From assembly GCA_017551925.1 (NCBI GenBank), contig JAFZKA010000031.1:1-64000 (forward strand): a DNA stretch of 64,000 nucleotides. The letters are read 5' to 3'. This document shows, one piece after another, positions 7,452 through 48,207 of this stretch. Within the stretch, counting starts at the first letter, position 1; the number at the start of each line of letters is the position of its first letter. The notes beneath the pieces are model-generated. The model did no database searches. It worked only from the letters and a program-made list of their open reading frames with translations, and had not been told where the DNA came from. Both the position numbers and the translations under genes were made by a program. The DNA comes from Bacteroidaceae bacterium (lineage in GTDB: Bacteria > Bacteroidota > Bacteroidia > Bacteroidales > Bacteroidaceae).

Positions 7452-7490
7452 CATCGTTTTTGAAACATAAAGACGAACAAGTCAGTGAAA

Positions 7491-7691: not shown

Positions 7692-7736
7692 CGTCTTTAA
7701 TAAGAAACAAGAACAAAAACCAAAAACAATACAATT

Positions 7737-9923: not shown

Positions 9924-9951
9924 TAAAAGCGAGTTGATAATTCTCAATTAT

Positions 9952-9985
9952 AAAAGGGTTGCCGCTTGATCGCGGCACCCTTTAC
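9952..9985 (+). terminator. Terminator between glnA(III) and gltB
   Basis: AAAGGGTTGCCGC pairs with GCGGCACCCTTT around TTGATC, with one bulged T. The tail is only TTT, so read-through into gltB is likely. Confidence 0.7.
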
Positions 9986-10033
9986 CAAAATAACAGGAGT
10001 GTAGATAGTTTTACCATTGCAGTTAATATTTCT

Positions 10034-14500: not shown

Positions 14501-14519
14501 TTTTAAGTAAGATTCTACT

Positions 14520-15866: not shown

Positions 15867-15867
15867 T

Positions 15868-16704: not shown

Positions 16705-16709
16705 GATAC

Positions 16710-30470: not shown

Positions 30471-30591
30471 CAACATCTATCTGATTTTTTCTATTTGCAA
30501 TCCTTACACTTATCCACAATTTTAAAGATTATTATATACCAAATTAGAGTTATGATATGCTTTATTAACTTTCAATAATTTCATAACACGT

Positions 30592-31035
30592 TCATAGTTT
30601 TATACTGAATGTTTTGAAAGACAAACTGTCACCAGGCAAAAATCCGGTTTCATACTCTATCACCGGGCCATAGATTGCACGGCTTATAGAGTCAAGCGAT
30701 ATAGTAGTCCCTTTTACGGAACATACAGCGGCCCGAACTCCTTAATTATCCACATGGGCCTGGTAAAAGGCATTGCCGCCATGAAACGGGTGCGCTACAA
30801 TACACTGTCAGGCGTATTCTGAATCATCAACTGATTCTCCATCACACCTACCGTCTCATCTCAGTTATTGTTCCAGTTTATGTCACTGCTTATCCCCACC
30901 GTATCGCCCGGCGTACCCAACACCCGTTTGCAGTACACATATTTTATCTTGAACACAATCTTAGTTCACTCATCATAGCCAATCGGATAGTTAAAGCAGA
31001 TAACATAGCCCGCCACCAGTTCAGGTGCACCCCTA
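30592..31035 (-). pseudogene. Decayed signal peptidase I (S26 family)
   Basis: Conceptual translation on the minus strand gives VAGYVICFNYPIGYDE*TKIVF, then KIKYVYCKRVLGTPGDTVGI, IKEFGPLYVP and, after a frameshift, KGTTISLDSI followed by YGPVIEYETG. These are consecutive conserved blocks of a Bacteroidetes-type signal peptidase I, including the KR...PGD box with the catalytic Lys. At least three in-frame stops (one TGA where Trp would be expected) and one frameshift interrupt it, and the N-terminal part with the catalytic Ser is missing. It ends at 30592 and abuts the DUF3987-type fragment on the opposite strand. Confidence 0.75.
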
Positions 31036-31217
31036 CGGAATCACTGAACAGCGTACAGAAATCGGTCTATTCAGAGCTTCCGATTCAGTTCACCACAGCC
31101 GAGGGCCTGATTATTGCCGCGGAACTGGGCATGAAGGAACGGACATTCAAGGATTGGATTAAGACCGATCTGTTCAAGCACGTATCGCACGGTATGTACG
31201 AAAAAACCTATAGATAG
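31026..31217 (+). pseudogene. C-terminal remnant of a DUF3987-type protein
   Basis: An open frame without its own start ends at TAG 31215-31217. It reads SVYSELPIQFTTAEGLIIAA, then ELGMKERTFKDWIKTDLFKH and VSHGMYEK. This resembles the winged-helix-like C-terminal tail of DUF3987 (primase/VirE-like) proteins found on Bacteroidales mobile elements. Everything upstream of about 31030 is lost, and the fragment abuts the signal peptidase relic. It probably marks the scar of a degraded integrated element. The identification is from memory of the family tail, so moderate. Confidence 0.5.
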
Positions 31218-31704
31218 GAACATATCTTTTTCAATTGATTAAATATGCAAATATTTCTTTTGCAGCCCACTCGTTGTGATAACGGGCGGGCTGTGTCTTT
31301 AGTGCGGCTGGAGTATGGCTCCAGTTGGAGGATGCTGGATTGATGAGGGTGACTCAGTTGGTTTGTGGCGGCATCGGGCAAATTATGAGATGTTCCCTAC
31401 AGGCATCTTAGGTCAATTCTGCGACTAAGACAATCTTGAGAAACATATAGGAACTTTTGGATAACGTTTGTTCGATAAAAGTTTGTTCCAGTCACTTGTT
31501 GGCTGGAAAGTTCTGGTGCGATTACAACTAGAAGCGTGGGCTTTGGGGGATGGAAACGGTGTGTCTTGGGACAATGGCGGGTGGATATTTTAAACATCAT
31601 TAGTTTTATGTTGCAATATGATAGTATTTTTGAAGGAGTCACTTAACACATAATACAATTCATTTACTTACTTTTGCATCTTATACAGCATAACACTGGA
31701 TACA
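31218..31704. other. Non-coding gap before the A+T-rich cassette
   Basis: No supported gene. A strong hairpin at 31260-31293 pairs GCAGCCCACTCGTT with AACGGGCGGGCTG around GTGAT and could be a relic terminator. A TACTTTTG -7 box at 31669-31676 lies 28 nt before the CHASE2 gene. An 81-codon minus-strand ORF (31397-31642) has no recognisable features. Confidence 0.5.
31669..31676 (+). promoter_or_regulatory. Promoter -7 box of the CHASE2 cassette
   Basis: TACTTTTG followed by GCATC, 28 nt before the ATG at 31705. It is the only good box before the five-gene run. Confidence 0.55.
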
Positions 31705-32859
31705 ATGAAGTTTCTTGCAAAAATACGTATTATTATAAAGAAGTCTTTTGTATTGAAGTCTTTGGTCATTTCATTATTTGCTTTCCTCTTATCTTATGGA
31801 CTATACCACGGTCTTAATAAGTATCTATATTATTTTGGTATAGACACAAGCAATTTGTCTTATCTTCAACAATACTATGAGAATATAAACTCAACGACCA
31901 CAATAGATAATCGCTCTAATGATATTATCATTTTGAGTGTTAATGATAGTACTAATCGTGATTCAATTGCAGTTGCTCTCGATACGATTTTTAATTATAA
32001 ACCTAAAGTCGTTGGTATTGACTTTTTTTTCAGTTCCAACATCTTAGATAATGATTCTTTATTAAAAGATCGTATTCAAAAACACGCTGATTCTATCGTC
32101 CTAGCTCAAGTTTATGGTGGTGATGGAGACATTGAAAGAGGTATTTTTGATAAAGATTCTCTATTGACTTTTGGGCTCATACACTCATATAATGATATAA
32201 GGTTTCCATATAAAGATAACGGTTATTACAACTTTGCTTATGAAATAGCTAAGAAATACAATCCGACATTATTTGATAATGAAAAATTATTGGATAATTT
32301 TGTTATAAACTATTCAAATATAAATTTTCATCATATAGATATTCTTGGTTATAAAAATGCTTCCAAGGAAGAAAAGGAATATAAGGATGAGATTATTGAC
32401 AATAATGTTAGAAACAAAATCGTCTTGATTGGGCCATATGATGATGTATTTGATATCCATCCTACTCAATTTGTTATTGAAAAGAAAAGAATGCTCTCTG
32501 GAATTAAATTTCATGCATATGCAATAAACTCTTTGATACACCCAGAAATAGCAATGAAAGAATTGTCAATTGAATCTTGCGGAAACATGTTGATATTTTG
32601 GGGGTTCTGTTTTATCTATTCACTTTTCTTTGTTTTGTTTACAGATGAGAATATCAAGCACCGTAAATGGTTTGCTCCATTGACAACCTGGCCCAGTTCT
32701 ATTATTTTGGTGATTATTGCAGCTATCATCTTGGCTTGTGGCTTTTATTTGATGAAATACTTCAAGATTATTCCTGATGTAACACCACTCTTTATTTCGA
32801 TATTTGTAATTAATACGCTCAGTGATTTATTATCTCGATTCTTTATTTTAAAAAAATAG
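31705..32859 (+). CDS. CHASE2-domain membrane sensor protein
   Basis: 384 residues. A membrane segment at about 18-38 is followed by a roughly 250-residue extracytoplasmic CHASE2 domain (NDIIILSVNDSTNRDSIAVA, YKPKVVGIDFFF, RNKIVLIGPYDD, ...SGIKFHAYAINSLI) and three C-terminal membrane segments (about 285-380). This is the CHASE2-plus-3TM sensor unit, but no output domain (kinase, cyclase or CHAT) is fused to it. The signal must therefore pass to separate proteins, plausibly the secreted proteins encoded next. Codon and base use is much more A+T-rich than in the flanking housekeeping genes. The next gene starts 4 nt after the stop. Confidence 0.8.
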   Translation: MKFLAKIRIIIKKSFVLKSLVISLFAFLLSYGLYHGLNKYLYYFGIDTSNLSYLQQYYENINSTTTIDNRSNDIIILSVNDSTNRDSIAVALDTIFNYKPKVVGIDFFFSSNILDNDSLLKDRIQKHADSIVLAQVYGGDGDIERGIFDKDSLLTFGLIHSYNDIRFPYKDNGYYNFAYEIAKKYNPTLFDNEKLLDNFVINYSNINFHHIDILGYKNASKEEKEYKDEIIDNNVRNKIVLIGPYDDVFDIHPTQFVIEKKRMLSGIKFHAYAINSLIHPEIAMKELSIESCGNMLIFWGFCFIYSLFFVLFTDENIKHRKWFAPLTTWPSSIILVIIAAIILACGFYLMKYFKIIPDVTPLFISIFVINTLSDLLSRFFILKK

Positions 32860-32863
32860 ACTT

Positions 32864-33628
32864 ATGAGAAGAATTCGTTTGTTTTTAATATGTGTAGTTT
32901 CAATTAACTGCATAGTAATAAAAGCACAAGCTCAAGAAGATAAGTTCTATATTGAGGCAGGTGATGCTGAAGTGAAAGTAAAGACAGGGAGCTCTTTTAA
33001 TTGGATAAGTCCTGGAATAGCTTCTTCATTTAATGAGAGAGACTCTCTTCATGTAAAAAAAGGAAAAGTTTGGTTGAAAAAAAATAGTGAAAAAAAGATA
33101 GATCCAATCTTTGCTTCGCCAGCAATGTCTTTTAATGATGCATGGATTTTACCTCATAAAAATAACCCTTTGCGTCGTTCTTCTCCATTAGGCACAATAA
33201 AACAGGGAAATCAATCAAAAGACTCCCTTGAGATTCAATTCGCCTTTATTAATCATTTAGGTGATAGCACAATAGTTGTTCATAAAAGTGATACTTTGGA
33301 GGCAATGGTTATAAACCATACATCTGCTGATACACTTTACGCTTATGTGTATTGGGAACTCACGCCAATGGTAAAAAATTTGGTTCCTATGAATGATTAC
33401 ATAGATAATTCAGTTTGTGTTATAACGCCTGGATACAACGTTGTTTTCCCGCTTAATCAAAACATGCCCATAAGATGGGAAGCCAATTCAAAAATAATTA
33501 TCATATATTCAAAAGACAAGGGAAGAATTATACCAGAAAGAAAGGACGGGGACTACTGCATGTCTTTTTATAATGAGGCATCAGAAAAAGGGTTTAAAAT
33601 TAATGAATTAAATATTGAATATCAATGA
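32864..33628 (+). CDS. Secreted protein of unknown function (FecR/DUF4384-like features)
   Basis: 254 residues with a signal peptide (cleavage near KAQAQ, about residue 23). The first part, YIEAGDAEVKVKTGSSFNW, vaguely resembles FecR-type periplasmic domains. The second (LYAYVYWELTPMVKNLVPMN ... GYNVVFPL) resembles the DUF4384 pattern found with caspase-like and CHAT proteins. Both resemblances are weak and should be treated as inference. It is embedded in the CHASE2-caspase cassette with 4-nt and 12-nt gaps, so it is very likely cotranscribed and functionally linked. Confidence 0.55.
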   Translation: MRRIRLFLICVVSINCIVIKAQAQEDKFYIEAGDAEVKVKTGSSFNWISPGIASSFNERDSLHVKKGKVWLKKNSEKKIDPIFASPAMSFNDAWILPHKNNPLRRSSPLGTIKQGNQSKDSLEIQFAFINHLGDSTIVVHKSDTLEAMVINHTSADTLYAYVYWELTPMVKNLVPMNDYIDNSVCVITPGYNVVFPLNQNMPIRWEANSKIIIIYSKDKGRIIPERKDGDYCMSFYNEASEKGFKINELNIEYQ

Positions 33629-33640
33629 AATTGAATATTA

Positions 33641-35068
33641 ATGAATAAATTGGTTTTTGCGACATTAATAATGTTGTTGTATGCGAATCTGGGATTTTCC
33701 CAACCAGCGGAGTATATTAATAAAACTGAATCTCCTAGGAACCGGGTGTTGATTCAAACTATTGGGATAAGATACAAAGAGAATGATTTGCATTCTGCCT
33801 CAAGTTTAAGCCAATATAGAAAAAGTTTAGCGGAGAAATATATATTCCCGGGTTATCCAGATAGCAGCATTGTTTTTTCACTTCACGGGGATACTTTGAG
33901 CGCATCAATAATTGACTCTCACTTGAAAAATCTTGAATATGAGACGAGTTCTACAGATGTTGTCATTATTCATATCATTGGGCATGGAGAATATGACGAG
34001 GCAAATGATATGTATTACTTAATTTGCAGTGATGGTAGTAAACTGAGTGGCGATGATTTATGCAAATATATAACAACAATTTCTGGCAAAGGTGCTCTTG
34101 TTGTTGTATTTCTTGACACTTGTCATTCTGGTGCCTTATTCAAAAAAGGGGAGAATGGAAGTCATTTTGGCAATAATGGGGGCGTTGCCCTTTTTGCCGC
34201 ATCGCAACGTAAACAAGATGCCACAGATTTAGGACAAAGCAAATTTACGAATACTATCTTTGAAGTATTGAAAACAAATAAGAGTTTGACATTAGGCACG
34301 TTAGCAAAAAAAATAGGTGAAAAATATCACAATGATTCTATAGAGAAAGAAATTGATATTTCTACAGGCCAAAATCCATATGCTTTCTTTTTCCCTAAGA
34401 ACAGATTTTTAGATGGATATAAGATAAAAGATTATCCAATAATAAGAGCTGCTGTATCAAAAAAAACGATAGGTAAGGATACGCTCCAATCAACGAATAG
34501 TAGATTCTACGTTGGCATCACCGTAGGATCAAACCATACTTGCACTCCATATGCTAACGTAAATCTAGGTGTTGACATTAACAATAGCCATAAAATTGAA
34601 GCTGGATTTACCCACTCGCTACTAAAAAAATCAGATGAAGTATATATGTATGACAATAATGGAATCATACAGAACGCACTTCAATATAAGGCGATGTCTT
34701 TTTATGCGCGGTATGGATTTAATTGGCTTTCTTTGTGTAAAGACAAGAGACGTTCAGAATTCATAACACTTGCAGGCCTTTCAGGGAATATAGTTAAAGG
34801 TGATAATCTTTCCGGATTCAATAGCAGTATTGGAAAAACTGCAGGTTCATTAATGGGTGATGTCTGTTGTAGATGGGCATTGGATTTATCTAAAGATAAT
34901 AAACGTAATGTCCTTTTACATATGACTGCAGGTTTTGATTTTCCCATAAAAAGAGACGGTAATGTCTGCAACGTTTTAAACAGTGAGAAGTATATAAAGA
35001 ATTGGTGTTCTTTTAGGCCATATATTGAGGCCGGGGTTATCATCAGTCCAAAATTCTTGAATTTTTGA
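33641..35068 (+). CDS. Secreted caspase-like (C14) protease with beta-barrel-like C-terminus
   Basis: 475 residues. A signal peptide (about 1-20) is followed by a caspase-fold domain with the catalytic pair His115 (VIIHIIGHGEYDE) and Cys161 (VVVFLDTCHSG). Residues about 290-475 alternate hydrophobic and polar positions in strand-like stretches and end in a terminal Phe (SPKFLNF), the pattern of outer-membrane beta-barrels. A protease anchored in the outer membrane is therefore plausible. The family cleaves after basic residues (metacaspases) or acidic ones; specificity is not visible. Neighbours are a CHASE2 sensor, a small secreted protein and a BACON protein, all in one tight A+T-rich run. 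Confidence 0.75.
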   Translation: MNKLVFATLIMLLYANLGFSQPAEYINKTESPRNRVLIQTIGIRYKENDLHSASSLSQYRKSLAEKYIFPGYPDSSIVFSLHGDTLSASIIDSHLKNLEYETSSTDVVIIHIIGHGEYDEANDMYYLICSDGSKLSGDDLCKYITTISGKGALVVVFLDTCHSGALFKKGENGSHFGNNGGVALFAASQRKQDATDLGQSKFTNTIFEVLKTNKSLTLGTLAKKIGEKYHNDSIEKEIDISTGQNPYAFFFPKNRFLDGYKIKDYPIIRAAVSKKTIGKDTLQSTNSRFYVGITVGSNHTCTPYANVNLGVDINNSHKIEAGFTHSLLKKSDEVYMYDNNGIIQNALQYKAMSFYARYGFNWLSLCKDKRRSEFITLAGLSGNIVKGDNLSGFNSSIGKTAGSLMGDVCCRWALDLSKDNKRNVLLHMTAGFDFPIKRDGNVCNVLNSEKYIKNWCSFRPYIEAGVIISPKFLNF

Positions 35069-35071
35069 GTT

Positions 35072-36841
35072 ATGAAATACATAAGAGTCATAAAAACAAT
35101 CTTGTTGGTCCTACTAATTCTCTTTGCTGATTGTAGTGAAGACTTGGAAGGATACATGGTAAACGGGAATTACCTCAAAATAGAAAACACAGAGAATGGA
35201 ATCCTGAACTTTTCTGATGAAGTAACCAGTCGTTTTGTGACTATCAACTCAAAAGGAATATGGAACATAACTTCAAAACCTAATTGGCTCAATGTTACGC
35301 CAATTTCTGGGGAAGGTAGAACAACGGTATCTTTTAAAGTTACGGATAATCCATCAAGCGAAGATAGCAGAAGTGATACTGTAAAGATAGCATTGGGCGA
35401 TTTGGTGAGTAATATTATTGCTAATCAGGCTGCTTCTGCATACAGGCCATTTACGTTATCAACAACATCCTTGGAATTTGGTGCAAATGATACAGATGAA
35501 AAAATAATCAACTTGTATTCAAATTCAAGTTGGTCTATAGTCAATAAAAAAGGATGGTGTCATATTACTCCGACTGAAGGAAAAGGAAATGGAGAATTGA
35601 CAATTAGTTGTGAAGAGAATACGACAGGTAAGGATCGTAAAAATGTTATTGAAATTAAAACTTCTAGAGAAACTATATCTGTTTCAATTGAACAAAGTGA
35701 GAATAAGTTTTATCTCAAGGCATTTCCGGAGAATCTAGCTATTTTCGCAGGAAAGGGCGGTTCGCAAGACATTCTGATTTTAAGCAATACTGATTGGATG
35801 ATTGGATATAGCGATGAATGGTGCAAACCTTCCGAGTTTCGCGGAAATGGTGATAAAATAATTTCCATTACTGCCAGTCAGAACACATTGACTATTCCAA
35901 GAAATGCTACGATAATGATCTCTTGGGCAGATGAAGAGAAGGTTATTAATGTAACGCAGGAAAAAGGTGAAGACCCCAGATTGTCAGTCACCCCCCAGAC
36001 AATTGGACAAGTCTCTAGTGATGGTGGTAGCTATAAGTTTACCATATCTAGCAATGTTGAGTGGACTGTTGAAAATACCAAGGAATGGTGCCATGTGTTC
36101 ATAGAAGATGATGACTTTAAGATTACAGTTGATAAGAATCCTATTGGGAGTGTCGAACGTTATGATACCTTAACTATAAAATCAACAGCTGGTGATAAGA
36201 CAATATTCGTACACCAAGCAGCTGGGCCAACTCCTGTGTTGAATATAGTCCCTTCAACATTAGAGACTTTACAGTATGATAATAATGGCGGAACTAAACC
36301 GTTCACCATTCAAAGCAACATAGAATGGAGCTTAACGTGTAGTGATGAATCTTGGTGTCATATTGAAACACAAACAAGCACTGTTACCGGCAATGGAGAA
36401 GTAGAAGTAAAGGTTAAGGTTGATGCAAATCCACCAGAAGAACCAGAAAGGACATGTAATCTCATTATTCAATCTACATGGTTTGATGATAGGATTATTA
36501 TGGTTCGCCAAGAGAAAGGGGATGATGGTTATGTCCACGTTTCAGATAGTGTTTTGAATACGAATCCTCAGGGAGATAATAATTCATTTAGCATAGAAAG
36601 CAATCTTTCTAATTGGTCTGTATCAAGTAACGTGAGTTGGTGTGAGGTTAAAACCTCACAGGGTTCTTTCAATGGAACAGTAGAATTGACGGTTGGTATG
36701 AATTCTGACACAGAGGCCCGCGATGCCATTATCACCATTAAATCTGCGATTAATGATATTATGGTAAAAGTACACCAGGAGCCTAAGGCTATACCCGGCG
36801 ACGACGATAACCCTAATCCAAGTTATTCAAATAAACGCTAA
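35072..36841 (+). CDS. BACON-domain repeat protein, probable lipoprotein
   Basis: 589 residues. The N-terminus has a hydrophobic segment ending LFADCSEDLE; the Cys followed by acidic residues resembles a Bacteroidetes lipoprotein with surface-export signal, although Asp at -1 is unusual. About six BACON-type beta-sandwich repeats follow (roughly residues 42-115, 119-209, 212-297, 301-383, 387-478 and 484-570), each with WxI.....W and a closing VxQ motif (for example VNVTQEKG, VHQAAG, VRQEKGD). BACON domains bind glycans or mucin, or act as spacers. The C-terminus is short and rich in Asp/Asn/Pro. The gene starts 3 nt after the caspase-like gene. Confidence 0.82.
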   Translation: MKYIRVIKTILLVLLILFADCSEDLEGYMVNGNYLKIENTENGILNFSDEVTSRFVTINSKGIWNITSKPNWLNVTPISGEGRTTVSFKVTDNPSSEDSRSDTVKIALGDLVSNIIANQAASAYRPFTLSTTSLEFGANDTDEKIINLYSNSSWSIVNKKGWCHITPTEGKGNGELTISCEENTTGKDRKNVIEIKTSRETISVSIEQSENKFYLKAFPENLAIFAGKGGSQDILILSNTDWMIGYSDEWCKPSEFRGNGDKIISITASQNTLTIPRNATIMISWADEEKVINVTQEKGEDPRLSVTPQTIGQVSSDGGSYKFTISSNVEWTVENTKEWCHVFIEDDDFKITVDKNPIGSVERYDTLTIKSTAGDKTIFVHQAAGPTPVLNIVPSTLETLQYDNNGGTKPFTIQSNIEWSLTCSDESWCHIETQTSTVTGNGEVEVKVKVDANPPEEPERTCNLIIQSTWFDDRIIMVRQEKGDDGYVHVSDSVLNTNPQGDNNSFSIESNLSNWSVSSNVSWCEVKTSQGSFNGTVELTVGMNSDTEARDAIITIKSAINDIMVKVHQEPKAIPGDDDNPNPSYSNKR

Positions 36842-36847
36842 ATAACT

Positions 36848-39800
36848 ATGAAACAGCTTTTTCTAAAATATATTGCAGCAATAGCTATCAGTTTTTGTCC
36901 TGCCACTTTATTAGCTGAGAGTTTCACAGTAGGTGATGTTACGTATGAAACAGACCCTAATGATAGTGAGGCTGTTATTTTAACCAATGGAAAAAGTAAA
37001 AGTGGGGAATTTGAAATACCTCAAAAAATCACAATGGGTTCAAAAACATATTATGTTAGAACAATTGGTAAAAGTGCATTTTACTTTTCAAACCTCAAAT
37101 CAATTATTATCCCTGAAGGAGTAACAACCATACAAGAAAGTGCTTTTTCCTACAGCAAACTTGAATCTGTACAACTGCCGACTACTCTTAACTCTATTGG
37201 TAATAATGCTTTCTATTCCACTCTTATCACAGAAATAGCCATACCAAAAAATGTTTCATCTATAGGAAATCAATTTTTATGTGATTGTGATTCGCTCACT
37301 ACTATTTTGGTTAACGGAGAAAATGAACATTTTGACTCAAGAAACAATTGCAATGCTGTGATAAGAAAAACAGACAATGTACTTATACAGGGGTGTAAGA
37401 GCTCAACTATACCCGAAGGAATAGCAGTTATTGGTGCATATGCTTTCCATGAAATTCCCATTGAAACAATATCATTGCCAACTACTATTAGAACAATTGG
37501 TAAAAGTGCATTTTACTTTTCAAACCTCAAATCAATTATTATCCCTGAAGGAGTAACAACCATACAAGAAAGTGCTTTTTCCTACAGCAAACTTGAATCT
37601 GTACAACTGCCGACTACTCTTAACTCTATTGGTAATAATGCTTTCTATAGTATTGCTAAAAATGCAACACTACTAATACCATATGGATTGACTTCATTTT
37701 TTGAAGAGAAGGGTGTGAATCAGTATTTTAGTACTATTGAAGAATATAATATTAGTCGTTTCACTTACGAAGGTATTGATTATTTAGCAGACGAGAATAA
37801 TCCTAGAAATCTATGGGTAATAGCAACTAATCCAAAGTATGCAGAGCCGACCTATACTATACCTTCGTCATTCTCTAAGTATGGAATTACTTATACAGTT
37901 ATAGGCATTGGTGAAACTGCATTTATGGATTGTGAAAACCTGGAATCTATTATATTACCTCAAACCATAACTACTATTGAACATGAGGCTTTTAAAAATT
38001 GTAGCAATCTAACAAGTATTGATTTATCGACCACCCTTACTACAATTGGTTATGCTGCATTCTACAGTTGCAGGAAACTAAGTTCCATACAGTTTCCTAC
38101 CAGTCTAATCAAAATTGGCAGTAATGCTTTTCAATATTCTGGAATAAAAACTGTATTTATTCCCCAAAACCTTGCTGAAATAGGAAATAGAGCTTTTGCC
38201 GGATGCGACAGCCTTACAGCTATTATTGTTGATGACAATAATCTTATTTACAATTCTAAGGATAATTGTAATGCTGTCCTAAAAGGAACAGAATTAGTGG
38301 CTGGCTGTAAAAACACAATAATTCCAGAGGGTACTACAACGATTGGAGATGCAGCGTTTTATGATCATAAATTATTAATTGATATAACACTCCCACAGTC
38401 TATAAAAAATATAGAAGATAATGCATTTAGTGGTTGTAGTAACCTTAAATCAATTAATGTACCAATGAGTGTTACAAACATTGGTGATTTAGCCTTTTAT
38501 GCATGCCGCAATTTAGAATCAATTCAAATACCGGAAAACACCCTATCTATAGGTGAATATGCCTTTGCTTTCTGTTCAGAACTAAAGGAGATAGAATCAT
38601 ATATAAAGAATCCATTTGATTTAGAGGAAGGAGTATTTGACTTTAATAAAAACAATACTACTCTCTTTGTGCCTGTTGGAACAATTAATGATTATAAGCA
38701 AAAATCAGGATGGAAGGATTTTTCTAATATACAGGAAATAGGTTTGCCTGTTGTTTTTGAAAATAGTGATTTTACTTTCTATGGACTCAAAAAGAAAAAG
38801 ACAGCAACCATCACATCCTTTAAAGGATCAGATTCAATTGTTGTTCTGCCTACAAATGTAAGCAACGATAACATTGAATATTCAATTATTGGTATCAAAG
38901 ACTCCGCATTTGCTAACAGTAAGATTGTAAGTCTTGAAATACCTGTTGAGATAGGAACAATAGGACAAGGTATACTCCATAACTGCTATGAATTAGCTGC
39001 CATTATTTGGAAGTTGAATACTAAGCCTACACAAGAGTTCATTAAGAACATTAAAAATCCTAATCTTTTATTCTATGTGAAATCAGCAAACCAAGTACCC
39101 AATAATATACAAAACGTTGTTATTGGCAGCGAAGCTGACAACATCATTCTTTGCGATGCAACTAATAGTCGTTTCTATTGCCCTATTCCATTTGTTGCCA
39201 AGAACATCTCATATACACGCTCCTTTAGTATGAAAACGGAAAAAGAAAATGCGCAAGGATGGGAATCAATAGCATTACCTTTTGACGTCCAGTCTTATAA
39301 AACCAGCAAAGGAGAGATTCTAAAACCTTATCTCTTAGCTAATGCAGGTGAAAAAAGATTCTGGTTAAGAGAGTTTGGTCTTAATGGATTTACTGAGACA
39401 TCTGTTATTAGGGCAAACACACCATATATTATCTCAATGCCCAACTGGGATGGATATCAGGATTATTATAATATAACTGGAGATGTCATTTTTTCCGCTG
39501 AAGATGTGACTGTTCCCGCGACTAAAACAGAGCCGATAACTCTTGGTAGCTATCAATTCTGGCCATCATTCCGACAAATTGAAACCGGGAATGAACTATA
39601 TTCTTTGAATAAAACCGAATACGGGAATAACGCGCCCGGTAGTACTTTTGTAAAGGATATTAGAACCATTACACCTTTTGAGGCATATTTTACCAGAACC
39701 GGAAGCAATGCCCCAACAAGAAGTATTTCTATAAAAGATCTTACATCTGGTACCACCGACTTGACATATAGACATTTCATTACAAAGATTACTGTTGAAA

Positions 39801-39961
39801 ACGGAGTAGTTTATATAGATGCATTATCAGATGGGGTATGCAATATTTACACACTTAACGGACAATTATTTAGGGTTATAATACTCAAAACTGGAAAGAA
39901 TGTCATCAATGACATTCCAAATGGAATATATATCATTAACGGAAGAACTATCATTATCTAA
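36848..39961 (+). CDS. BspA-type leucine-rich repeat surface protein
   Basis: 1037 residues with a signal peptide (ends LLAES, about residue 24). Two large blocks of LRR_5-type repeats (SIGNNAFYS, TIGDAAFYD, IEDNAFSGCSNLKSI and the like) cover about residues 70-300 and 350-620. A mixed C-terminal region ends with a sorting-domain-like tail (VENGVVYIDALSDGVCNIYT ... NGIYIINGRTIII). BspA-like proteins bind fibronectin, other cells or host surfaces. Part of the first block is an exact 161-bp duplication (37056-37216 and 37488-37648), indicating recent internal recombination. It is the last gene of the A+T-rich cassette. Confidence 0.88.
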   Translation: MKQLFLKYIAAIAISFCPATLLAESFTVGDVTYETDPNDSEAVILTNGKSKSGEFEIPQKITMGSKTYYVRTIGKSAFYFSNLKSIIIPEGVTTIQESAFSYSKLESVQLPTTLNSIGNNAFYSTLITEIAIPKNVSSIGNQFLCDCDSLTTILVNGENEHFDSRNNCNAVIRKTDNVLIQGCKSSTIPEGIAVIGAYAFHEIPIETISLPTTIRTIGKSAFYFSNLKSIIIPEGVTTIQESAFSYSKLESVQLPTTLNSIGNNAFYSIAKNATLLIPYGLTSFFEEKGVNQYFSTIEEYNISRFTYEGIDYLADENNPRNLWVIATNPKYAEPTYTIPSSFSKYGITYTVIGIGETAFMDCENLESIILPQTITTIEHEAFKNCSNLTSIDLSTTLTTIGYAAFYSCRKLSSIQFPTSLIKIGSNAFQYSGIKTVFIPQNLAEIGNRAFAGCDSLTAIIVDDNNLIYNSKDNCNAVLKGTELVAGCKNTIIPEGTTTIGDAAFYDHKLLIDITLPQSIKNIEDNAFSGCSNLKSINVPMSVTNIGDLAFYACRNLESIQIPENTLSIGEYAFAFCSELKEIESYIKNPFDLEEGVFDFNKNNTTLFVPVGTINDYKQKSGWKDFSNIQEIGLPVVFENSDFTFYGLKKKKTATITSFKGSDSIVVLPTNVSNDNIEYSIIGIKDSAFANSKIVSLEIPVEIGTIGQGILHNCYELAAIIWKLNTKPTQEFIKNIKNPNLLFYVKSANQVPNNIQNVVIGSEADNIILCDATNSRFYCPIPFVAKNISYTRSFSMKTEKENAQGWESIALPFDVQSYKTSKGEILKPYLLANAGEKRFWLREFGLNGFTETSVIRANTPYIISMPNWDGYQDYYNITGDVIFSAEDVTVPATKTEPITLGSYQFWPSFRQIETGNELYSLNKTEYGNNAPGSTFVKDIRTITPFEAYFTRTGSNAPTRSISIKDLTSGTTDLTYRHFITKITVENGVVYIDALSDGVCNIYTLNGQLFRVIILKTGKNVINDIPNGIYIINGRTIII
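37056..37216 (+). repeat. Exact 161-bp direct repeat, first copy
   Basis: Identical to 37488-37648, offset 432 bp (144 codons), so the reading frame is kept. It encodes two leucine-rich repeat units within the LRR protein. Confidence 0.9.
37488..37648 (+). repeat. Exact 161-bp direct repeat, second copy
   Basis: Second copy of 37056-37216. Recombination between the two would delete or add exactly 144 residues. Confidence 0.9.
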
Positions 39962-39972
39962 TTGTAGTTATT

Positions 39973-40830
39973 ATGACAGCACAAGAGTTCACCCACCCTG
40001 ATGATGCGGCGGCACTAAAGAAACTGGAGAGTATTCCGCTACTGCCCACTCTGACCAAGACCTTCATGGATGTTGGTGCTGAGCAGATGATGTATGGGAC
40101 CAATATGGCTACTAAGGTCAAGCTATCTCCAACACAACTGCCAAAACTATACAATATTTTGCCACCACTCTGTGCCAGGCTTGGGATTAAGGAACCAGAA
40201 TTCTTTTTAGAGATGACTCCTGTGCCTAATGCATATGCTTTTGGCGATACATATACAGCAATTACCATAACATCAGGTATTGTTGACCTTTTGACAGAAG
40301 AGGAATTGATAGCTTGTGTTGCACATGAATGTGGACACATCCTATGCAGGCATATGCTGTACCACACTATGGCCTCAATGCTTGTCAATGGAGCTATGCA
40401 ATCAGATATTCTGGGGGCTATAGCAGCACCGCTTAAATTCGCTCTTCTTTATTGGAACCGTAAGAGTGAACTGAGTTGTGACCGTGTGGCCACCTTCTGC
40501 TGTGGGCCTGAGACTACTATCAGGCTTATGACCAGGCTTGCCGGAGGTCCAAAGAACATTACTGATGAAATTAATCTTGTAGAGTTTGCTGAGCAGGCAG
40601 ACCAGTATGATGCCATATGTAAGGATGGAATGTGGAACAAGACACTCCAGACTTTTGCCGTATTAAATCAGGATCATCCGTTTGCATCAGTTAGAGTGCG
40701 TGAAACATTGCGTTGGGTTGTGGATGATAAGTATAAGAAACTGAGGGAGAAATATCCATCATGCCCGCATTGCTATAGAGAAATAAAGCCAGGAGCACGT
40801 TTCTGCACTAATTGTGGTAAAGGACTATAA
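39973..40830 (+). CDS. M48-type metallopeptidase with C-terminal zinc ribbon
   Basis: 285 residues. The zinc-protease motif HECGH lies at 118-122 within ELIACVAHECGHILCRHML. The third zinc ligand is probably the Glu in RKSELSCDRVA, the M48 pattern ExxxD. The C-terminus carries a zinc ribbon, CPHC ... CTNCGK (about residues 264-285), like the double-cysteine tail of the next protein. No signal peptide is evident, so it is probably cytoplasmic. It is the first gene of a seven-gene, closely spaced run ending at 44548. The substrate is unknown; M48 peptidases often act in protein quality control. Confidence 0.85.
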   Translation: MTAQEFTHPDDAAALKKLESIPLLPTLTKTFMDVGAEQMMYGTNMATKVKLSPTQLPKLYNILPPLCARLGIKEPEFFLEMTPVPNAYAFGDTYTAITITSGIVDLLTEEELIACVAHECGHILCRHMLYHTMASMLVNGAMQSDILGAIAAPLKFALLYWNRKSELSCDRVATFCCGPETTIRLMTRLAGGPKNITDEINLVEFAEQADQYDAICKDGMWNKTLQTFAVLNQDHPFASVRVRETLRWVVDDKYKKLREKYPSCPHCYREIKPGARFCTNCGKGL

Positions 40831-40842
40831 TAACTAACCGGT

Positions 40843-41550
40843 ATGAACATTACACCATTTCTTGCCAAAGCATTCCAGGAACTGGATAATAAAATGCAAG
40901 GCATATTGAACGGGACTAAGATTGAGAGTATTAAAGAGACTATCAGCTACTATGCTATAGCTGCAGCAATTGCCAGCATGATTGCCGCTGTAGTTCCAGG
41001 TGGCGGTGGACTGATTGCAGCTGCAGCCCAAGTAGGTTTTCTGTGGGCTACGTACGTAAAAATAAACAAGACAATCGGACTATCGATGACCGATGAGACA
41101 TCAAAGTTTCTTGCTAACGCCATTCTTACTAATCTTATCACTTACTATGGCGCATTGCTTGCCGGTCATATTGTTGCAAGCGTGGTTGCGTTTATACCCA
41201 TTGCTGGAAGTGCCCTGGCAGCTGCGGCAGAGGGCCTGATTGGTTACACTGCAATTTATGTTTCGGCATACATATACATTAAACTTATAACACGTGTAGT
41301 CAAGCCTGACGGGAGTATTGAAATTGCAGATAAGGACAAAACCAGTGATATAATCAAGCAGATTATGGCACGCGAAGATATGAAGGGGCTTGTAAAAGAG
41401 AGTACCAAGCAGTTTAAGGATGCCCAGAAGAGCGGTGCCATTGATGCCGTTAAGGCATTAAAGAGATGCCCCGAGTGCGGTACTCCGTACAGTGAAGGAG
41501 ATCATTTCTGTTCTGTCTGCGGACATGACCTGACAAAATCTAACAAATAA
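40843..41550 (+). CDS. Helical membrane-associated protein with C-terminal zinc ribbon
   Basis: 235 residues. The central part (about 30-160) has alternating Ala/Gly-rich hydrophobic helices (AAAIASMIAAVVPGGGGLIA, AGHIVASVVAFIPIAGSALA), reminiscent of DUF697-type membrane-interacting domains. The last 30 residues form a zinc ribbon, CPECGTPYSEGDHFCSVCGH, similar to that of the M48 peptidase encoded just before. The shared zinc-ribbon tails suggest the two proteins meet the same partner or each other. Twelve nt separate the genes. The function is otherwise unknown. Confidence 0.6.
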   Translation: MNITPFLAKAFQELDNKMQGILNGTKIESIKETISYYAIAAAIASMIAAVVPGGGGLIAAAAQVGFLWATYVKINKTIGLSMTDETSKFLANAILTNLITYYGALLAGHIVASVVAFIPIAGSALAAAAEGLIGYTAIYVSAYIYIKLITRVVKPDGSIEIADKDKTSDIIKQIMAREDMKGLVKESTKQFKDAQKSGAIDAVKALKRCPECGTPYSEGDHFCSVCGHDLTKSNK

Positions 41551-41563
41551 AACAGCAAACATT

Positions 41564-41842
41564 ATGAATACCTTTTTTGAAGATGAAGATACTCTAAACA
41601 TAGAGGACCTGATTATGGAACAGCCCTCATTCCAAAAGATTATGGAGGATGGGATTGTTACAAAGGAAGAGTTGGAGGAGCAGGCACAGAGGGTTATTGC
41701 CAGCCTGAAAGCTTTTGAAAAGGATGCCACTCCCGCACAGATAGACAAAGTTAGAGAGATACTTGCTGAAATATCAGTGCTGGTAGCAGTTAGGAACCAG
41801 TATGAGAAGCAGATAGCAAACAATAATACTACCTTACTTTGA
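41564..41842 (+). CDS. Small acidic helical protein, unknown function
   Basis: 92 residues, mostly predicted helix, with an acidic N-terminus (MNTFFEDEDTLNIEDLIMEQ) and a coiled-coil-like middle (EELEEQAQRVIASLKAFEKD). There is no signal peptide or membrane segment. Its stop codon overlaps the TTG start of the sigma factor (TTGA, 41839-41842), implying translational coupling, so a role linked to the sigma factor is plausible. Not recognised as any named family. Confidence 0.6.
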   Translation: MNTFFEDEDTLNIEDLIMEQPSFQKIMEDGIVTKEELEEQAQRVIASLKAFEKDATPAQIDKVREILAEISVLVAVRNQYEKQIANNNTTLL

Positions 41843-42393
41843 CCGACATAGAAATCATACAGGGCTTAATCGCGCGCGAAAATCGAATAACGCAGACATT
41901 CTTCTTTGAGGAGTGTCGGCCGTTGTTTTGTAAGATTATCAGCCAGGTTTTCAGTTATGAGGTGGATTATGATGAATTTGTCAATGAACTGTATGTTTAC
42001 CTTATGGAGAATGATGCTCAGAAGTTGCGTGATTTTGAGTATCGCAGTTCTGTGTATATGTGGCTCAAGGTAATAGCTATCAGATATTTTATCAAGAAGA
42101 GAGATAGAATGATAGATGTCACTCCGGAAAGTACTCCTTATGATAGGCCGGAATTGATTGAAGACGATGATGATAACGGAATTGCTATTAGTGATTTAAA
42201 TACACTGTTCAGCCGGATGCCTACAGAACGTTATGTCTATGTGTTAAGGAATTTGCTGATAGAAGACTGTGATCCTGATAAATTGGCACAAGAGATGGGT
42301 GTGACTAAAGCTAATCTGTATAATATTAAACGGCGTGCAATGGCGCAACTGACACGCATAGCACTTAAAGATATCAATAAGTATGGCAAATAA
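41839..42393 (+). CDS. RNA polymerase sigma factor, ECF-like
   Basis: 184 residues. Region 2 is seen in YDEFVNELYVYLMENDAQKL ... YRSSVYMWLKVIAIRYFIKK, and region 4 with its helix-turn-helix in DPDKLAQEMGVTKANLYNIK. The start is a TTG overlapping the previous stop; no in-frame ATG lies before region 2, so TTG is likely real. The downstream gene overlaps its end by 11 bases. The sigma factor probably directs its own operon or the WG-repeat and peptidase genes around it, with the next protein as antagonist. The target promoter is not identifiable here. Confidence 0.82.
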   Translation: MTDIEIIQGLIARENRITQTFFFEECRPLFCKIISQVFSYEVDYDEFVNELYVYLMENDAQKLRDFEYRSSVYMWLKVIAIRYFIKKRDRMIDVTPESTPYDRPELIEDDDDNGIAISDLNTLFSRMPTERYVYVLRNLLIEDCDPDKLAQEMGVTKANLYNIKRRAMAQLTRIALKDINKYGK

Positions 42394-43042
42394 TCACATA
42401 TCTGATGAACTGCTCGCTGCTTTCATGGAAGGCAATGTTAATGAGCAGGAGTTGGCTCAGGTGTTAAGGGCCGCTAGGACTGATGCGGAACTTCAAGAGG
42501 TGCTAAATATAGCGTTAGAAGTAAATGATGAATCTCATCCTATGCTGCAAATGGCGGCTGAAGGCAGACGAAATCTTTGTGATGTGCAGTGTGAGACATT
42601 TATACTGAACGAAATGGGTGATGAAACAACTGTTGATGAACTGTTTGAGATTGCTAAGGATAAACACTGGTTGCGCAGAACTGGTACGCCGCTGTATTGT
42701 ATAGGAAATATTCTTGAGTACAAGGGGCTTGAGGTAAAAAGGATGTATGATGCTACCTTGGATGATATAAAAACTCTACTGAATGAAGGTTGGGGCGTAA
42801 TTGTGGCTGTTGATAGTGATAAACTATACCCTGAACGCATTGATGAAGAGGATGAAACGAATCACGCTGTTGTGGTAACAGGTATTGATGCTGATTCTGA
42901 CCAAATAAGCATTTATGATCCAAGCAACACAACTAAGGTTGATATTAAACAGCCGTTGTTTATGTCAGCATGGAATGAATCCCATAACTATCTGGTTAGT
43001 GCCTGTAATAAGAAAAAAACAAGTAAGGTGATAGATTCTTGA
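42383..43042 (+). CDS. C39-like cysteine peptidase with anti-sigma-like N-terminus
   Basis: 219 residues. Residues 1-45 (HISDELLAAFMEGNVNEQEL) look like the N-terminal helix pair of anti-sigma factors, without zinc ligands. Residues 60-210 match the papain-like C39_2 pattern: NLCDVQCETFILNEMG with Cys66 (or Cys70) as nucleophile, RRTGTPLYCIGNILEYKG, GWGVIVAVD and NHAVVVTGI ... ISIYDPSN with the catalytic His and a structural Asp. It overlaps the sigma factor gene by 11 nt. A cysteine peptidase fused to a sigma-binding segment would be an unusual way to control an ECF sigma factor. No signal peptide. Confidence 0.6.
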   Translation: MANNHISDELLAAFMEGNVNEQELAQVLRAARTDAELQEVLNIALEVNDESHPMLQMAAEGRRNLCDVQCETFILNEMGDETTVDELFEIAKDKHWLRRTGTPLYCIGNILEYKGLEVKRMYDATLDDIKTLLNEGWGVIVAVDSDKLYPERIDEEDETNHAVVVTGIDADSDQISIYDPSNTTKVDIKQPLFMSAWNESHNYLVSACNKKKTSKVIDS

Positions 43043-43085
43043 ATGGATTGTACTCTATAAGGCATAACATTATTAGAGTACAGTT

Positions 43086-44183
43086 ATGAAAAAGTTTTTA
43101 AAACAAGTATTGAACGCAGCCTGGAAGGTAAGCGTTGTTTTGATTGGTGTGTTTGCAATATTGCTGGCCTTAAGGATAGGACAGTTGTTGTACAGGGACT
43201 ATTTTGGACGTGAAAAATGGAATGACAAGACTTTGTCATGCGACGTGGTTGTAAAGGCATATAGCAGAGACCGCTATCGTGTTTACAACAAGAAGACCAA
43301 GCGTTATACCACACCAAAGTTGCGGTTTGTGTCTGGTGCACCGAAACGGGACAGCCTTACTGTTTTTTGTGATATGGACGGCTATCGTGGGTTCCTGAAT
43401 GTTAATACCGGTGATATTGTCATTCATGCCCAATATGGCAAGGCATGGCAGTTCTCTGATGGCTTGGCTGCAGTTATCTATGGAGATAAGAACCGTTTGG
43501 GATTTATTGACCACAACAATGAACTTGTTATAAAAGACATACCTCATGATCCAGGTTATTATGACTATATGTTCAAGGATGGTTTTTGTGTGATTGATAC
43601 ATGGGATGATATCAATGATGAGGATATTCACTCTGTCTATAGCAGCAAGAAACTTGGAAAGATTGGTGAGTATAAGAAATTAACCAAGATTGACGATAAT
43701 AATCACATTATAGCAAAGGATAATGATGGTTATTGGCTGCTTGACAGAGAGTACAATAAAGTTTTTGACTCTCCTTATGAAAGGATGGAAGAGGCTTACG
43801 GAATAGACGGAGTCTTTGTGACCAGGAACTGGGTAAAACAACTTGTGGATTATGACGGAAACGTTCTGGAACCGTTCGTAATAGATGGTACATACAGACT
43901 ATCATACGTTTCAGGCATAACAGATCCATATTACGAACTGGACGGCGAATATTATAATCAGGCAAACATAAAAGATTTTGAACCCGATATAATGGTCTAT
44001 TTTGTAAATGACAATCAGGGCCTGATGAACCCTAATACCGGTAAGATTGTAACCTTGGCCAAGTATGGTGACATATCAATGATATCAAAGAATTTAATAC
44101 GCGCTGAGGTCAATGAACTGAATGTCGAAAGTGTACTCCTGGACAGACATGGTAATGAAATAAAAATAATCACTAAAGAGTAA
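43086..44183 (+). CDS. Membrane-anchored WG-repeat protein
   Basis: 365 residues. A single N-terminal membrane anchor (about 12-35, VSVVLIGVFAILLALRIGQL) is followed by a beta-rich outer part with degenerate WG repeats (GFLNVNTGDIVIHAQYGKAW, LGFIDHNNELVI, WLLDREYNKVFDSPYE, GLMNPNTGKIVTLAKYGDIS). WG repeats form beta-propeller-like or elongated structures of unknown function, often near signalling genes in Bacteroidetes. The gene follows the sigma/peptidase pair by 43 nt and precedes a small gene by 5 nt. Confidence 0.7.
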   Translation: MKKFLKQVLNAAWKVSVVLIGVFAILLALRIGQLLYRDYFGREKWNDKTLSCDVVVKAYSRDRYRVYNKKTKRYTTPKLRFVSGAPKRDSLTVFCDMDGYRGFLNVNTGDIVIHAQYGKAWQFSDGLAAVIYGDKNRLGFIDHNNELVIKDIPHDPGYYDYMFKDGFCVIDTWDDINDEDIHSVYSSKKLGKIGEYKKLTKIDDNNHIIAKDNDGYWLLDREYNKVFDSPYERMEEAYGIDGVFVTRNWVKQLVDYDGNVLEPFVIDGTYRLSYVSGITDPYYELDGEYYNQANIKDFEPDIMVYFVNDNQGLMNPNTGKIVTLAKYGDISMISKNLIRAEVNELNVESVLLDRHGNEIKIITKE

Positions 44184-44188
44184 CAACA

Positions 44189-44548
44189 ATGGATGTCTGG
44201 AAAAGTGAAATGGAATCATGCTGCAGCATGAATGTTGATTCACTGTATAAGCGGTTGATGGAAAATAAGGAGAAAGCCGGAGAGCCCGGTTTTCTCCTAA
44301 GTTCAGGTATTGCTGCGGCACCACATGATGAAATGCTGTTTGATAGTGTTACTTTTTATGTCAAGACTGTTGAGGATAGTAAACTAGAACTGACAGCCAA
44401 AGTTCATTACTGGCATGCAACGGATGGTGCATGGGATAAAGTTGCCGTAATAGACAAGTTTTCAGACATTGATGAATGTCTGTTATGGCTGAATGATAAT
44501 AGGAATGCTAGCAAACAGAGCGCTGATATTCTGGCAAAAAAGTGTTAA
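44189..44548 (+). CDS. Small protein of unknown function, 119 aa
   Basis: 119 residues, starting MDVWKSEMESCCSMNVDSLY. There is no signal peptide or membrane segment. The C-terminal half looks like an alpha/beta fold (MLFDSVTFYVKTVEDSKLEL, AVIDKFSDIDECLLWLND). Not recognised. It is the last gene of the 40-44.5 kb operon, and its end overlaps by 4 bases the convergent minus-strand gene, so no terminator separates them. Confidence 0.55.
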   Translation: MDVWKSEMESCCSMNVDSLYKRLMENKEKAGEPGFLLSSGIAAAPHDEMLFDSVTFYVKTVEDSKLELTAKVHYWHATDGAWDKVAVIDKFSDIDECLLWLNDNRNASKQSADILAKKC

Positions 44549-45423
44549 GAAACTGATATCATCTGATGTATTACGGGGCGGATTCTTTCCACCTTGAAAC
44601 CTATAAGGCGTTCAGTGATCAGTATTCTCAGAAAAGCATAAGGCCGAACCATGGCTTCAACCTCCTGAATAGGAACATCGGGACCATAGTATGCATGAAC
44701 AAAAGCCTCCCAGAAAGCCTTTGATGTATCCAGGCCGATGTGGTACAGTTCGCGTTCCATCTCATCGGGTATTAGGCAGGTCTGCAGCATGATTACGCCC
44801 AGATCAAACAATGGCGTCCCTGTACAGAAATCACTCAGGTCAATGAAATAATGATGTCCGTCATCAGTAATGATAACATTCCCGTGGTGCAGGTCTCCGT
44901 GTACAGCGGTGTCGGCATCGGGTAGGGTGTCTATAAAATGAAAGACACCATTCTTTTCCTGGTCAGAGAGGTATGGATTGAGATTAATCTCACTCTTATA
45001 CTGCTCTTTAGCCGTATTGAACAATCCCGGCGCAGGCTTAATGGAGTGAAGTTCCTTGCAGTCCTTTGCAAACATCGCTGCATATTCCTGCAGCCGTTCC
45101 GGATTGTGGCTAAGCGCTCTTGCATATGATTTCTTTCCAATAATACGCGTGTATGTTATACCCAAGCGCCCGTCAGTAGTACATACCATTTTACCCGGTG
45201 CCGGACAAGGTACGCCTATGCTGTACACCTTGCATGCCCGTTTGTACTCCTCCAGTCCGTTCTGTTCCAACTTTTTGGAATAAAGTTTGAGCAGTTCATC
45301 AGGATTACTCTTGTTGGTATAACTCTCTCCCAATTTCCCGCCTCCAGACAACACATAGTCATTCAAATCAATAATTCTGATCTGCTCCTCTGCTGCCAGG
45401 TCCTTGTTAATAGAATCATTCAT
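44545..45423 (-). CDS. Aminoglycoside-phosphotransferase-fold kinase (TIGR02172-like)
   Basis: 292 residues. APH/choline-kinase fold: the catalytic loop is VHGDLHHGNVI and the metal-binding Asp follows in HYFIDLSDFC. The nucleotide-binding N-lobe contains LGESYTNKSNPDELLKLY. This combination, with IRIIDLNDYVLSGGGKLGES, matches the TIGR02172 family of putative small-molecule kinases. The substrate is unknown and no antibiotic resistance should be assumed. An upstream in-frame GTG (45441) exists, but the ATG at 45423 gives the better start. It stands alone on the minus strand. Confidence 0.75.
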   Translation of the reverse strand: MNDSINKDLAAEEQIRIIDLNDYVLSGGGKLGESYTNKSNPDELLKLYSKKLEQNGLEEYKRACKVYSIGVPCPAPGKMVCTTDGRLGITYTRIIGKKSYARALSHNPERLQEYAAMFAKDCKELHSIKPAPGLFNTAKEQYKSEINLNPYLSDQEKNGVFHFIDTLPDADTAVHGDLHHGNVIITDDGHHYFIDLSDFCTGTPLFDLGVIMLQTCLIPDEMERELYHIGLDTSKAFWEAFVHAYYGPDVPIQEVEAMVRPYAFLRILITERLIGFKVERIRPVIHQMISVS

Positions 45424-45609
45424 ATGATTGAGAATAAACACGAATTACCAGTCCTCTTTTTTTGTTTGGAACAAATATAGTGGATTTCCGGGAATAGTTC
45501 AAAAAATGAGGCGGATGTTGGGTATAAGCCACTACTATCAAGATGTTTTAATCCTGGTGGTGGCAGTTATTATTGCCCCATGAAGTAGAGGACGAACCGT
45601 TATGTTTTA

Positions 45610-45753
45610 TCAAAGTTTGGCAATCTCGGTGGAGGCCAATCCTGTAATGTCAGTTATATCATCAATAGAATAGCCTTCTATTAGCATGGTTACATTTTTA
45701 GCATGTTCAATGATATCAAGAAGCCTTCCTTTATCTCTTACTCTTTCTCTCAT
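45610..45753 (-). pseudogene. Truncated HEPN (HepT-like) toxin partner, 47 aa
   Basis: The ORF begins MRERVRDKGRLLDIIEHAKN, the characteristic N-terminus of HepT/DUF86 HEPN proteins, but stops after 47 codons instead of about 110-120 and lacks the RxxxxxH/Y active-site motif. The tail (SIDDITDITGLASTEIAKL) looks like the short C-terminal helix-turn-helix-like ending found on unrelated small proteins, suggesting a deletion that joined two sequences. It overlaps the MNT gene by 23 nt, the normal MntA-HepT arrangement. It is probably a non-functional remnant, or a short product that no longer acts as a ribonuclease. Confidence 0.6.
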
Positions 45754-46039
45754 AAATCAGTTTTTTGTCACGGTTGGCACTTTCTGCAGCATATGGACGT
45801 AGCGTTCCATCAACTACAAGATCAACTTCACGTCCCAGTAACTCTTGCAAGTCCATAAGCATTCCGCCATGGGTAAACAAAGTGAAAGGTTTACCTGAAT
45901 AATCAGGTACAAACAATATATCCACATCGCTTGTGGGTGTCTCTTCACCTCGAGCGAATGATCCGAATAACCATGCCTTAAGAACTGGTTGGGTCTTGAA
46001 ATATTCGGCTATTGCTTCTTGCATAGCTTGAGTGCTCAT
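45731..46039 (-). CDS. MNT-type nucleotidyltransferase (MntA-like)
   Basis: 102 residues from the ATG at 46039 (the frame is open 10 codons further). Nucleotidyltransferase core: WLFGSFARGEETPTSDVDIL carries the GSxxRG and DxD motifs, with a third acidic residue in REVDLVVDG. In MntA-HepT systems this protein AMPylates the HEPN toxin and so neutralises it. Here the partner (45610-45753) is truncated, so the module appears to have lost its toxin while keeping an intact MNT protein. Confidence 0.8.
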   Translation of the reverse strand: MSTQAMQEAIAEYFKTQPVLKAWLFGSFARGEETPTSDVDILFVPDYSGKPFTLFTHGGMLMDLQELLGREVDLVVDGTLRPYAAESANRDKKLIYERKSKR

Positions 46040-46245
46040 AATCGCGCGTTTAATTGTTTGCAATTGCAAGGTTACAATTTTTTTTTTGAACCCCCAAATA
46101 ATGTATTGATTTGCGATGAATAAAATATATTCGCACGTAAAACGTATTGGGGCGAAGTGAGTATGCGAACGAGAACGGCCGGGTAGGCCGCCAAGCGAAC
46201 GTTTCCGATAGGAAACTAAAAGGAGGAGGGATTGATTGAATGCTG

Positions 46246-46297
46246 CTCTTTCCGCAAATAAAGGCCGCCCGATGGGTGGCCTTATTTGCGGAAAGAG
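46246..46297 (-). terminator. Terminator hairpin reaching into tRNA-Ser
   Basis: Arms CTCTTTCCGCAAATAAAGGCC (46246-46266) and GGCCTTATTTGCGGAAAGAG (46278-46297) are complementary apart from one extra A. On the minus strand the stem starts inside the tRNA 3' acceptor strand and continues through the trailer. The inner part, GGCCACCC/GGGCGGCC with a T-rich flank, works as the terminator. Confidence 0.7.
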
Positions 46298-46376
46298 TGG
46301 GATTCAAACCCACGGTACGGCTAGGCCGTACGCCGGATTTCGAGTCCGGTCCATTCGATCACTCTGGCATCTTTCC
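46289..46376 (-). tRNA. tRNA-Ser (anticodon CGA)
   Basis: 88 nt on the minus strand. Acceptor GGAAAGA pairs with TCTTTCC, discriminator G, CCA not encoded. The anticodon stem CCGGA / TCCGG encloses CTCGAAA (anticodon CGA, reading UCG). The long variable arm TACGGC..GCCGTA is typical of a class II serine tRNA, and the T arm GTGGG-TTTGAAT-CCCAC is intact. A TATCTTTG -7 box (46396-46389) lies 12 nt upstream. Confidence 0.95.
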
Positions 46377-46388
46377 GATTAGTGGCTG

Positions 46389-46396
46389 CAAAGATA
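46389..46396 (-). promoter_or_regulatory. Promoter -7 box of tRNA-Ser
   Basis: TATCTTTG on the minus strand, 12 nt before the 5' end of the tRNA. Confidence 0.65.
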
Positions 46397-46437
46397 ATGC
46401 AAGTCAGTCAATGTCCGGAAAGAAATTCAGATGTTTT

Positions 46438-48160: not shown

Positions 48161-48199
48161 GGGTGTTGAAATATTAATTGGTTTCTTGTTTGTCGGACG

Positions 48200-48207
48200 C
48201 AAAATTA
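48200..48207 (-). promoter_or_regulatory. Promoter -7 box of paaK-ACT
   Basis: TAATTTTG on the minus strand, 40 nt before the paaK ATG. It rules out the longer in-frame start. Confidence 0.7.

Follow-up and report, generated by a model that had tools for sequence, protein, structure and literature searches.

The window analysed here, 64,000 nt from a gut Bacteroidaceae bacterium (assembly GCA_017551925.1, contig JAFZKA010000031.1), carries a cassette of five genes encoding a CHASE2 membrane protein, a small secreted protein (P2), a caspase-like protease with a C-terminal barrel, a BACON lipoprotein and a BspA-type leucine-rich repeat (LRR) protein (Table 1). The intergenic gaps are 4, 12, 3 and 6 nt. 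An earlier note on this DNA had listed the same five open reading frames (ORFs) with gaps of 3-12 nt; we recovered them at the same positions, and its CHASE2, six-BACON, LRR and caspase labels were borne out by Pfam. A transmembrane (TM) scan agreed with its description of a CHASE2 protein without output domain, giving one N-terminal TM segment, an extracytoplasmic CHASE2 domain and about three C-terminal TM segments. The claim that all five products are exported or membrane-bound also stood. N-terminal hydrophobic signals were present in P2 and in the BACON and LRR proteins, and the caspase N-terminus is signal-like, clearly so in the homologue from a second genome, whereas the window copy scores below the threshold of the scan. 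An exact match to the Bacteroidales-type promoter pattern was not found directly upstream of the cassette.

The five-gene cassette and its counterpart in another genus

The G+C content at third codon positions (GC3) is 0.25-0.32 in the five cassette genes, 0.35-0.45 in the next seven genes and 0.52-0.59 in the flanking chromosomal genes. The distinct base composition that had been noticed earlier is visible in these values, but it does not delimit the cassette on both sides, as low GC continues past position 39961, where the next gene begins 11 nt after the LRR gene.

The same five genes occur in the same order in another genus, in a rumen metagenome-assembled genome (RUG13359, here G046; locus L009), which was the single locus found by a CHASE2 scan of genome contigs. 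The CHASE2 proteins are 45% identical (L009:7505-8686), the P2 proteins 25% (L009:8640-9407) and the caspases 32%, and the BACON and LRR orthologues matched with E-values of 2e-122 and 5e-223. The G046 block is AT-rich as well, with a GC3 of 0.24-0.32 between genes that mostly range from 0.44 to 0.68. The shared gene order and AT-richness in both genera indicate that the cassette is a real unit, and the five genes appear to have been transferred together as a single block. The proposal that these genes belong together, made from the window alone, is thus supported by their full co-occurrence in a second genome.

Upstream of the G046 block lie sigma factor, C39, M48, small protein and zinc-ribbon genes. 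The two genes immediately upstream of it are likewise AT-rich; at L009 5542-7345 they encode proteins of 118 aa and 487 aa, the latter with an HEGKH motif and no Pfam family, and they precede CHASE2 there, which they do not in the window.

CHASE2 was present in 41 of the 301 family genomes, and within the genus only in the window genome at the cut-off used. P2 matched no Pfam or NCBIfam family above cut-off, the Pfam models PF04773 and PF14326 included. Its comparison with FecR and DUF4384 by hhalign was weak or at chance level, and the resemblance of its C-terminus to DUF4384 was weak and non-significant.

An exported caspase with a predicted outer-membrane barrel

The caspase matched PF00656 (Peptidase_C14) with 24.9 bits at a cut-off of 21.4. 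His115-Gly116 and Cys161 are retained and are invariant with the L009 homologue. Its sole NCBIfam match was EACC1-caspase (NF047832), which reached 35 bits at a cut-off of 140. An order-wide profile search with the caspase-barrel protein returned, outside the window, matches to the caspase domain only.

The C-terminal part of the caspase (about residues 280-475) ends in Phe and shares homology with the terminal part of PEGA-barrel proteins. A profile search of 226 genomes located this barrel family at 20 loci, distributed over 15 genomes. The C-terminal Phe occurs in 16 of the 20 barrels, and at all 20 loci the barrel gene is followed by a gene for a BACON-family protein (18 detected by phmmer, 2 by Pfam). 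AlphaFold2 (AF2) modelling of the barrel with a 17-row alignment gave eight strands, with a predicted local distance difference test score (pLDDT) of 80.7 and a predicted template modelling score of 0.75. The closest solved structures were OmpA-type barrels, including OprF with a Z-score of 17.1 and a root-mean-square deviation of 2.1 over 131 residues. The caspase C-terminus is therefore predicted with good confidence to be an OmpA-like eight-strand outer-membrane barrel, in line with the barrel-like tail suspected in the earlier note. Both termini of OmpA-type barrels face the periplasm. Since the caspase domain precedes the barrel in the polypeptide, it most likely hangs in the periplasm, which speaks against the surface exposure that the note had assumed for it.

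In the BACON lipoprotein PF13004 matched six stretches (E 2e-48), and the lipobox Cys is followed by SEDLEG. The type IX secretion system (T9SS) tail PF18962 gave seven matches in the same genome; none lies in the window, and the LRR protein is not among them.

Recombined relatives and the accessory island

The association of CHASE2 with caspase-like proteases extends beyond the cassette. When ORFs were counted by a strict active-site motif, CHAT/caspase proteins made up 16 of 254 same-strand CHASE2 neighbours as compared with 0 of 246 other ORFs, and they nearly always sit two genes downstream of CHASE2. The commonest form consists of CHASE2, a small protein and a CHAT-TPR protein, often with an OmpA-type protein; the FecR labels of such small proteins beside CHASE2 were assigned by eye and were not confirmed by Pfam. 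Another form combines CHASE2, a transglutaminase-like protein, DUF4384, a 315-aa protein (barrel by eye) and an LRR-caspase fusion, and genome G285 has CHASE2, transglutaminase-like, PEGA-barrel and BACON genes. At a different site in a member of the window's genus (G020:C21, L156, 4848-12938), a CHASE2-like gene (profile E 2.8e-14) is followed by genes for a 759-aa caspase-PEGA-barrel protein and a 1557-aa lipoprotein with seven BACON domains and Big2; these genes overlap by 20 nt and 4 nt. In G008, another sister species of the same genus, LRR, PEGA-barrel and BACON genes are joined directly, in this order, to sigma (E 1e-81), C39-RyR and WG genes. That the gene combination recurs in rearranged forms points to a so far uncharacterised system of proteolysis in the cell envelope.

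Several described or related systems resemble parts of the cassette. CHASE2 is one of the variable domains of EACC2-caspase systems, many of whose neighbourhoods include an ECF (extracytoplasmic function) sigma factor gene (PMC8195603, Kaur et al.). The EACC1/EACC2-caspase systems of that study thus share with the window a caspase linked to a variable sensor, including CHASE2, and a nearby ECF sigma gene. The window caspase, however, has no visible EACC domain and is exported and barrel-fused, and its CHASE2 partner is a separate protein. The CHASE2-FecR (BiofilmReg) operon of Burkholderia, a two-component system (PMC5192318), likewise places a CHASE2 membrane protein beside a secreted accessory protein, but that CHASE2 domain belongs to a histidine kinase, and the operon has neither protease nor barrel. 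The family CHASE2/small secreted protein/CHAT-TPR operons have a clan-CD protease in the corresponding position and often an OmpA-type barrel protein nearby; in these CHAT replaces the caspase, the barrel is separate and BACON and LRR are missing. The PEGA-barrel/BACON(/LRR) surface modules have a homologous barrel and an adjoining BACON lipoprotein, with PEGA repeats in place of the caspase and CHASE2 mostly absent. A literature search found no paper that connects CHASE2 and CHAT, or PEGA and BACON in Bacteroidetes. Given this result and the failure to reach the EACC1 cut-off, the individual domains are known and their arrangement was not found described.

The view of an isolated five-gene cassette needed to be widened: while the cassette itself stood, the earlier note had overlooked the sigma/C39/M48/zinc-ribbon/WG genes next to it, as well as the modular relatives and the hotspot at tRNA-Ser. 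The distance from the PurF-like gene (28981-30417) to the PaaK-like gene (46859-48202) is 0.9-2.4 kb in many sister species, which lack the island; some carry other islands in its place. This position is occupied by TIR, RyR and TPR genes in G021 and G022 (L103, L105) and, in G007 (L104), by genes for sigma, C39, Hsp70, a WG protein and GTPases of the dynamin/LeoA-like and DO types. The site is a tRNA-Ser hotspot, and the cassette is horizontally acquired on a mobile accessory island. Within the island no intact integrase was found among mobile-element genes, only degraded sequence at 30525-31700. This interval between the PurF-like gene and CHASE2 looks non-coding and contains a fragment similar, as judged by eye, to the terminal part of a mobile-element-type protein. 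In some sister species, namely G025, G010 and G011 (L096, L101, L111), the tRNA-Ser(CGA) segment (window 46140-46435) has the opposite orientation with respect to its flanks, and in others it does not; the segment seems to flip.

Relatives of the M48 protease were found in 19 of 201 family genomes, and relatives of the C39-like peptidase carry RyR. The N-terminus of the C39 protein may have an anti-sigma role. Relatives of the WG protein occur at the island site in G007 (E 1e-111) and beside sigma/C39 in G008 (E 1e-154). Elsewhere the sigma/C39/M48/zinc-ribbon module accompanies TIR, SIR2-TIR-like, STAND-like and TrkA-RyR-like cargo, several of these labels having been assigned by eye.

Table 1. 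Genes of the cassette and the downstream run, and extent of the island (window positions)
Feature	Coordinates	Strand	Basis
CHASE2 protein, 384 aa	31705..32859	+	PF05226, 57.2 bits (cut-off 26.3); TM scan; L009 orthologue
P2, 254 aa, secreted	32864..33628	+	No Pfam/NCBIfam family above cut-off; L009 orthologue
Exported caspase (Peptidase_C14) with predicted C-terminal barrel	33641..35068	+	PF00656; barrel family; AF2
Six-BACON-domain lipoprotein	35072..36841	+	PF13004; lipobox
BspA-type LRR protein with signal peptide	36848..39961	+	PF13306 (LRR_5), E 2e-107
M48 metalloprotease, C-terminal zinc ribbon, no TM	39973..40830	+	PF01435, PF13240
Zinc-ribbon protein with hydrophobic segments	40843..41550	+	PF13240; TM scan
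Small protein (92 aa), conserved, sigma/M48 module	41564..41842	+	Related proteins in L009 and in further loci of the module
ECF-type sigma factor, TTG start, overlaps preceding gene	41839..42393	+	TIGR02937, 48.3 bits (cut-off 42.9)
C39-like cysteine peptidase, anti-sigma-like N-terminus	42383..43042	+	PF13529, 29.9 bits (cut-off 24)
WG-repeat membrane protein	43086..44183	+	PF14903; relatives in G007, G008
119-aa protein, end of gene run	44189..44548	+	5-nt gap; no Pfam family
Accessory island, ~15.7 kb	30525..46200	.	Between PurF-like gene and tRNA-Ser(CGA); BLAST

A candidate caspase relay in the cell envelope

The best reading of these data, to which we give an even chance, is an envelope-spanning caspase relay on a mobile accessory island. 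The CHASE2 protein would span the inner membrane and expose its sensor domain to the periplasm, where P2 would also be located. The caspase domain would be held in the periplasm by its OmpA-like outer-membrane barrel, and the BACON lipoprotein and the LRR protein would be positioned at the cell surface or close to it. Once a stimulus has been perceived at the surface or within the envelope, the caspase would become active and cut a periplasmic partner, be it CHASE2, P2 or the caspase itself, with signalling, remodelling or death as conceivable outcomes. The ECF sigma/C39 pair encoded downstream could adjust expression as a transcriptional arm. We infer the topology, catalysis, substrates, signalling direction and physiological role of the relay, which is possibly a defence or conflict system. 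Somewhat more tentatively, and at rather less than an even chance, we propose a signalling or suicide system that is sited wholly in the envelope and combines the barrel-tethered caspase and CHASE2 with exchangeable surface sensors (BACON, LRR).

Several observations weigh against the relay. Its exact five-gene form occurs in two genomes only, P2 belongs to no assigned family, and the CHASE2 protein has no cytoplasmic output domain, which leaves the route to the sigma factor unexplained. The sigma/C39/M48 genes accompany quite different cargo elsewhere and may be only loosely tied to the caspase; in composition, too, they differ from the cassette. The caspase gives a weak Pfam match, and AF2 modelling of the full-length protein with a two-row alignment gave a pLDDT of only 41.6 and was not used; catalytic activity and the domain interface are therefore without structural support.

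The hotspot context makes a conflict role a strong rival, albeit the less probable one. On this reading phage adsorption or a competitor would trigger the caspase to act as an effector of suicide or envelope damage, the surface proteins BACON and LRR would be the sensors, and sigma/C39/M48 would be shared control genes. The cargo that sister species carry at the hotspot (TIR, RyR and TPR, or sigma/C39 with dynamin/LeoA-like proteins, Hsp70 and DO-GTPases) is consistent with such a role, as are the TIR, SIR2-TIR, STAND-like and TrkA-RyR-like domains, partly recognised by eye, that accompany sigma/C39/M48 modules elsewhere, and the patchy distribution with one carrier in the genus. However, PADLOC models matched none of the seven window proteins tested, and the caspase is exported whereas known caspase effectors are cytoplasmic.

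A surface system for adhesion and host or glycan interaction, with the protease acting outside the cell as the earlier note had proposed, appears improbable. BACON and BspA-LRR are typical surface or binding domains, and LRR/PEGA-barrel/BACON modules occur without a caspase, but the predicted periplasmic position of the caspase domain ahead of the barrel and the lack of a T9SS-tail match in the LRR protein argue against it; no evidence supporting host interaction was found, and that part remains a guess. Least credible, and in our view very improbable, is the chance juxtaposition by island traffic of a sensor-protease set and a surface-protein set without joint function. Each set does occur separately in many genomes, but the conserved order in two genera, the short gaps and the G020 fusion of caspase and barrel, encoded between a CHASE2-like and a BACON gene, speak against unrelated neighbours.

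Bacterial caspases are mostly discussed as cytoplasmic immune or cell-death effectors. If the relay exists, it would be a caspase pathway sited outside the cytoplasm, and the combination of caspase-barrel, CHASE2 and surface lipoproteins would suggest a function, open to testing, for CHASE2 proteins that lack an output domain. The recurring, recombined domain set offers several systems for side-by-side testing.

A CHASE2 gene and a caspase-Sel1 gene, overlapping by 4 nt, were also found 18 nt upstream of a Cas13b gene (L048, G339:C9:55000-74500, 6553-17804; PspCas13b match E 9e-64), which is followed by a 449-aa gene and an eight-copy CRISPR array. This is possibly a caspase-accessory type VI-B locus; a literature search found no paper linking Cas13b with CHASE2. 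With the L048 caspase as query, the matches were dominated by Sel1 repeats. Cas13b occurred in two genomes among the 300 searched, the other being G173, where at L157 (G173:C51, 6775-14632) about 4 kb separate the Cas13b gene from a relative of the window's M48 gene.

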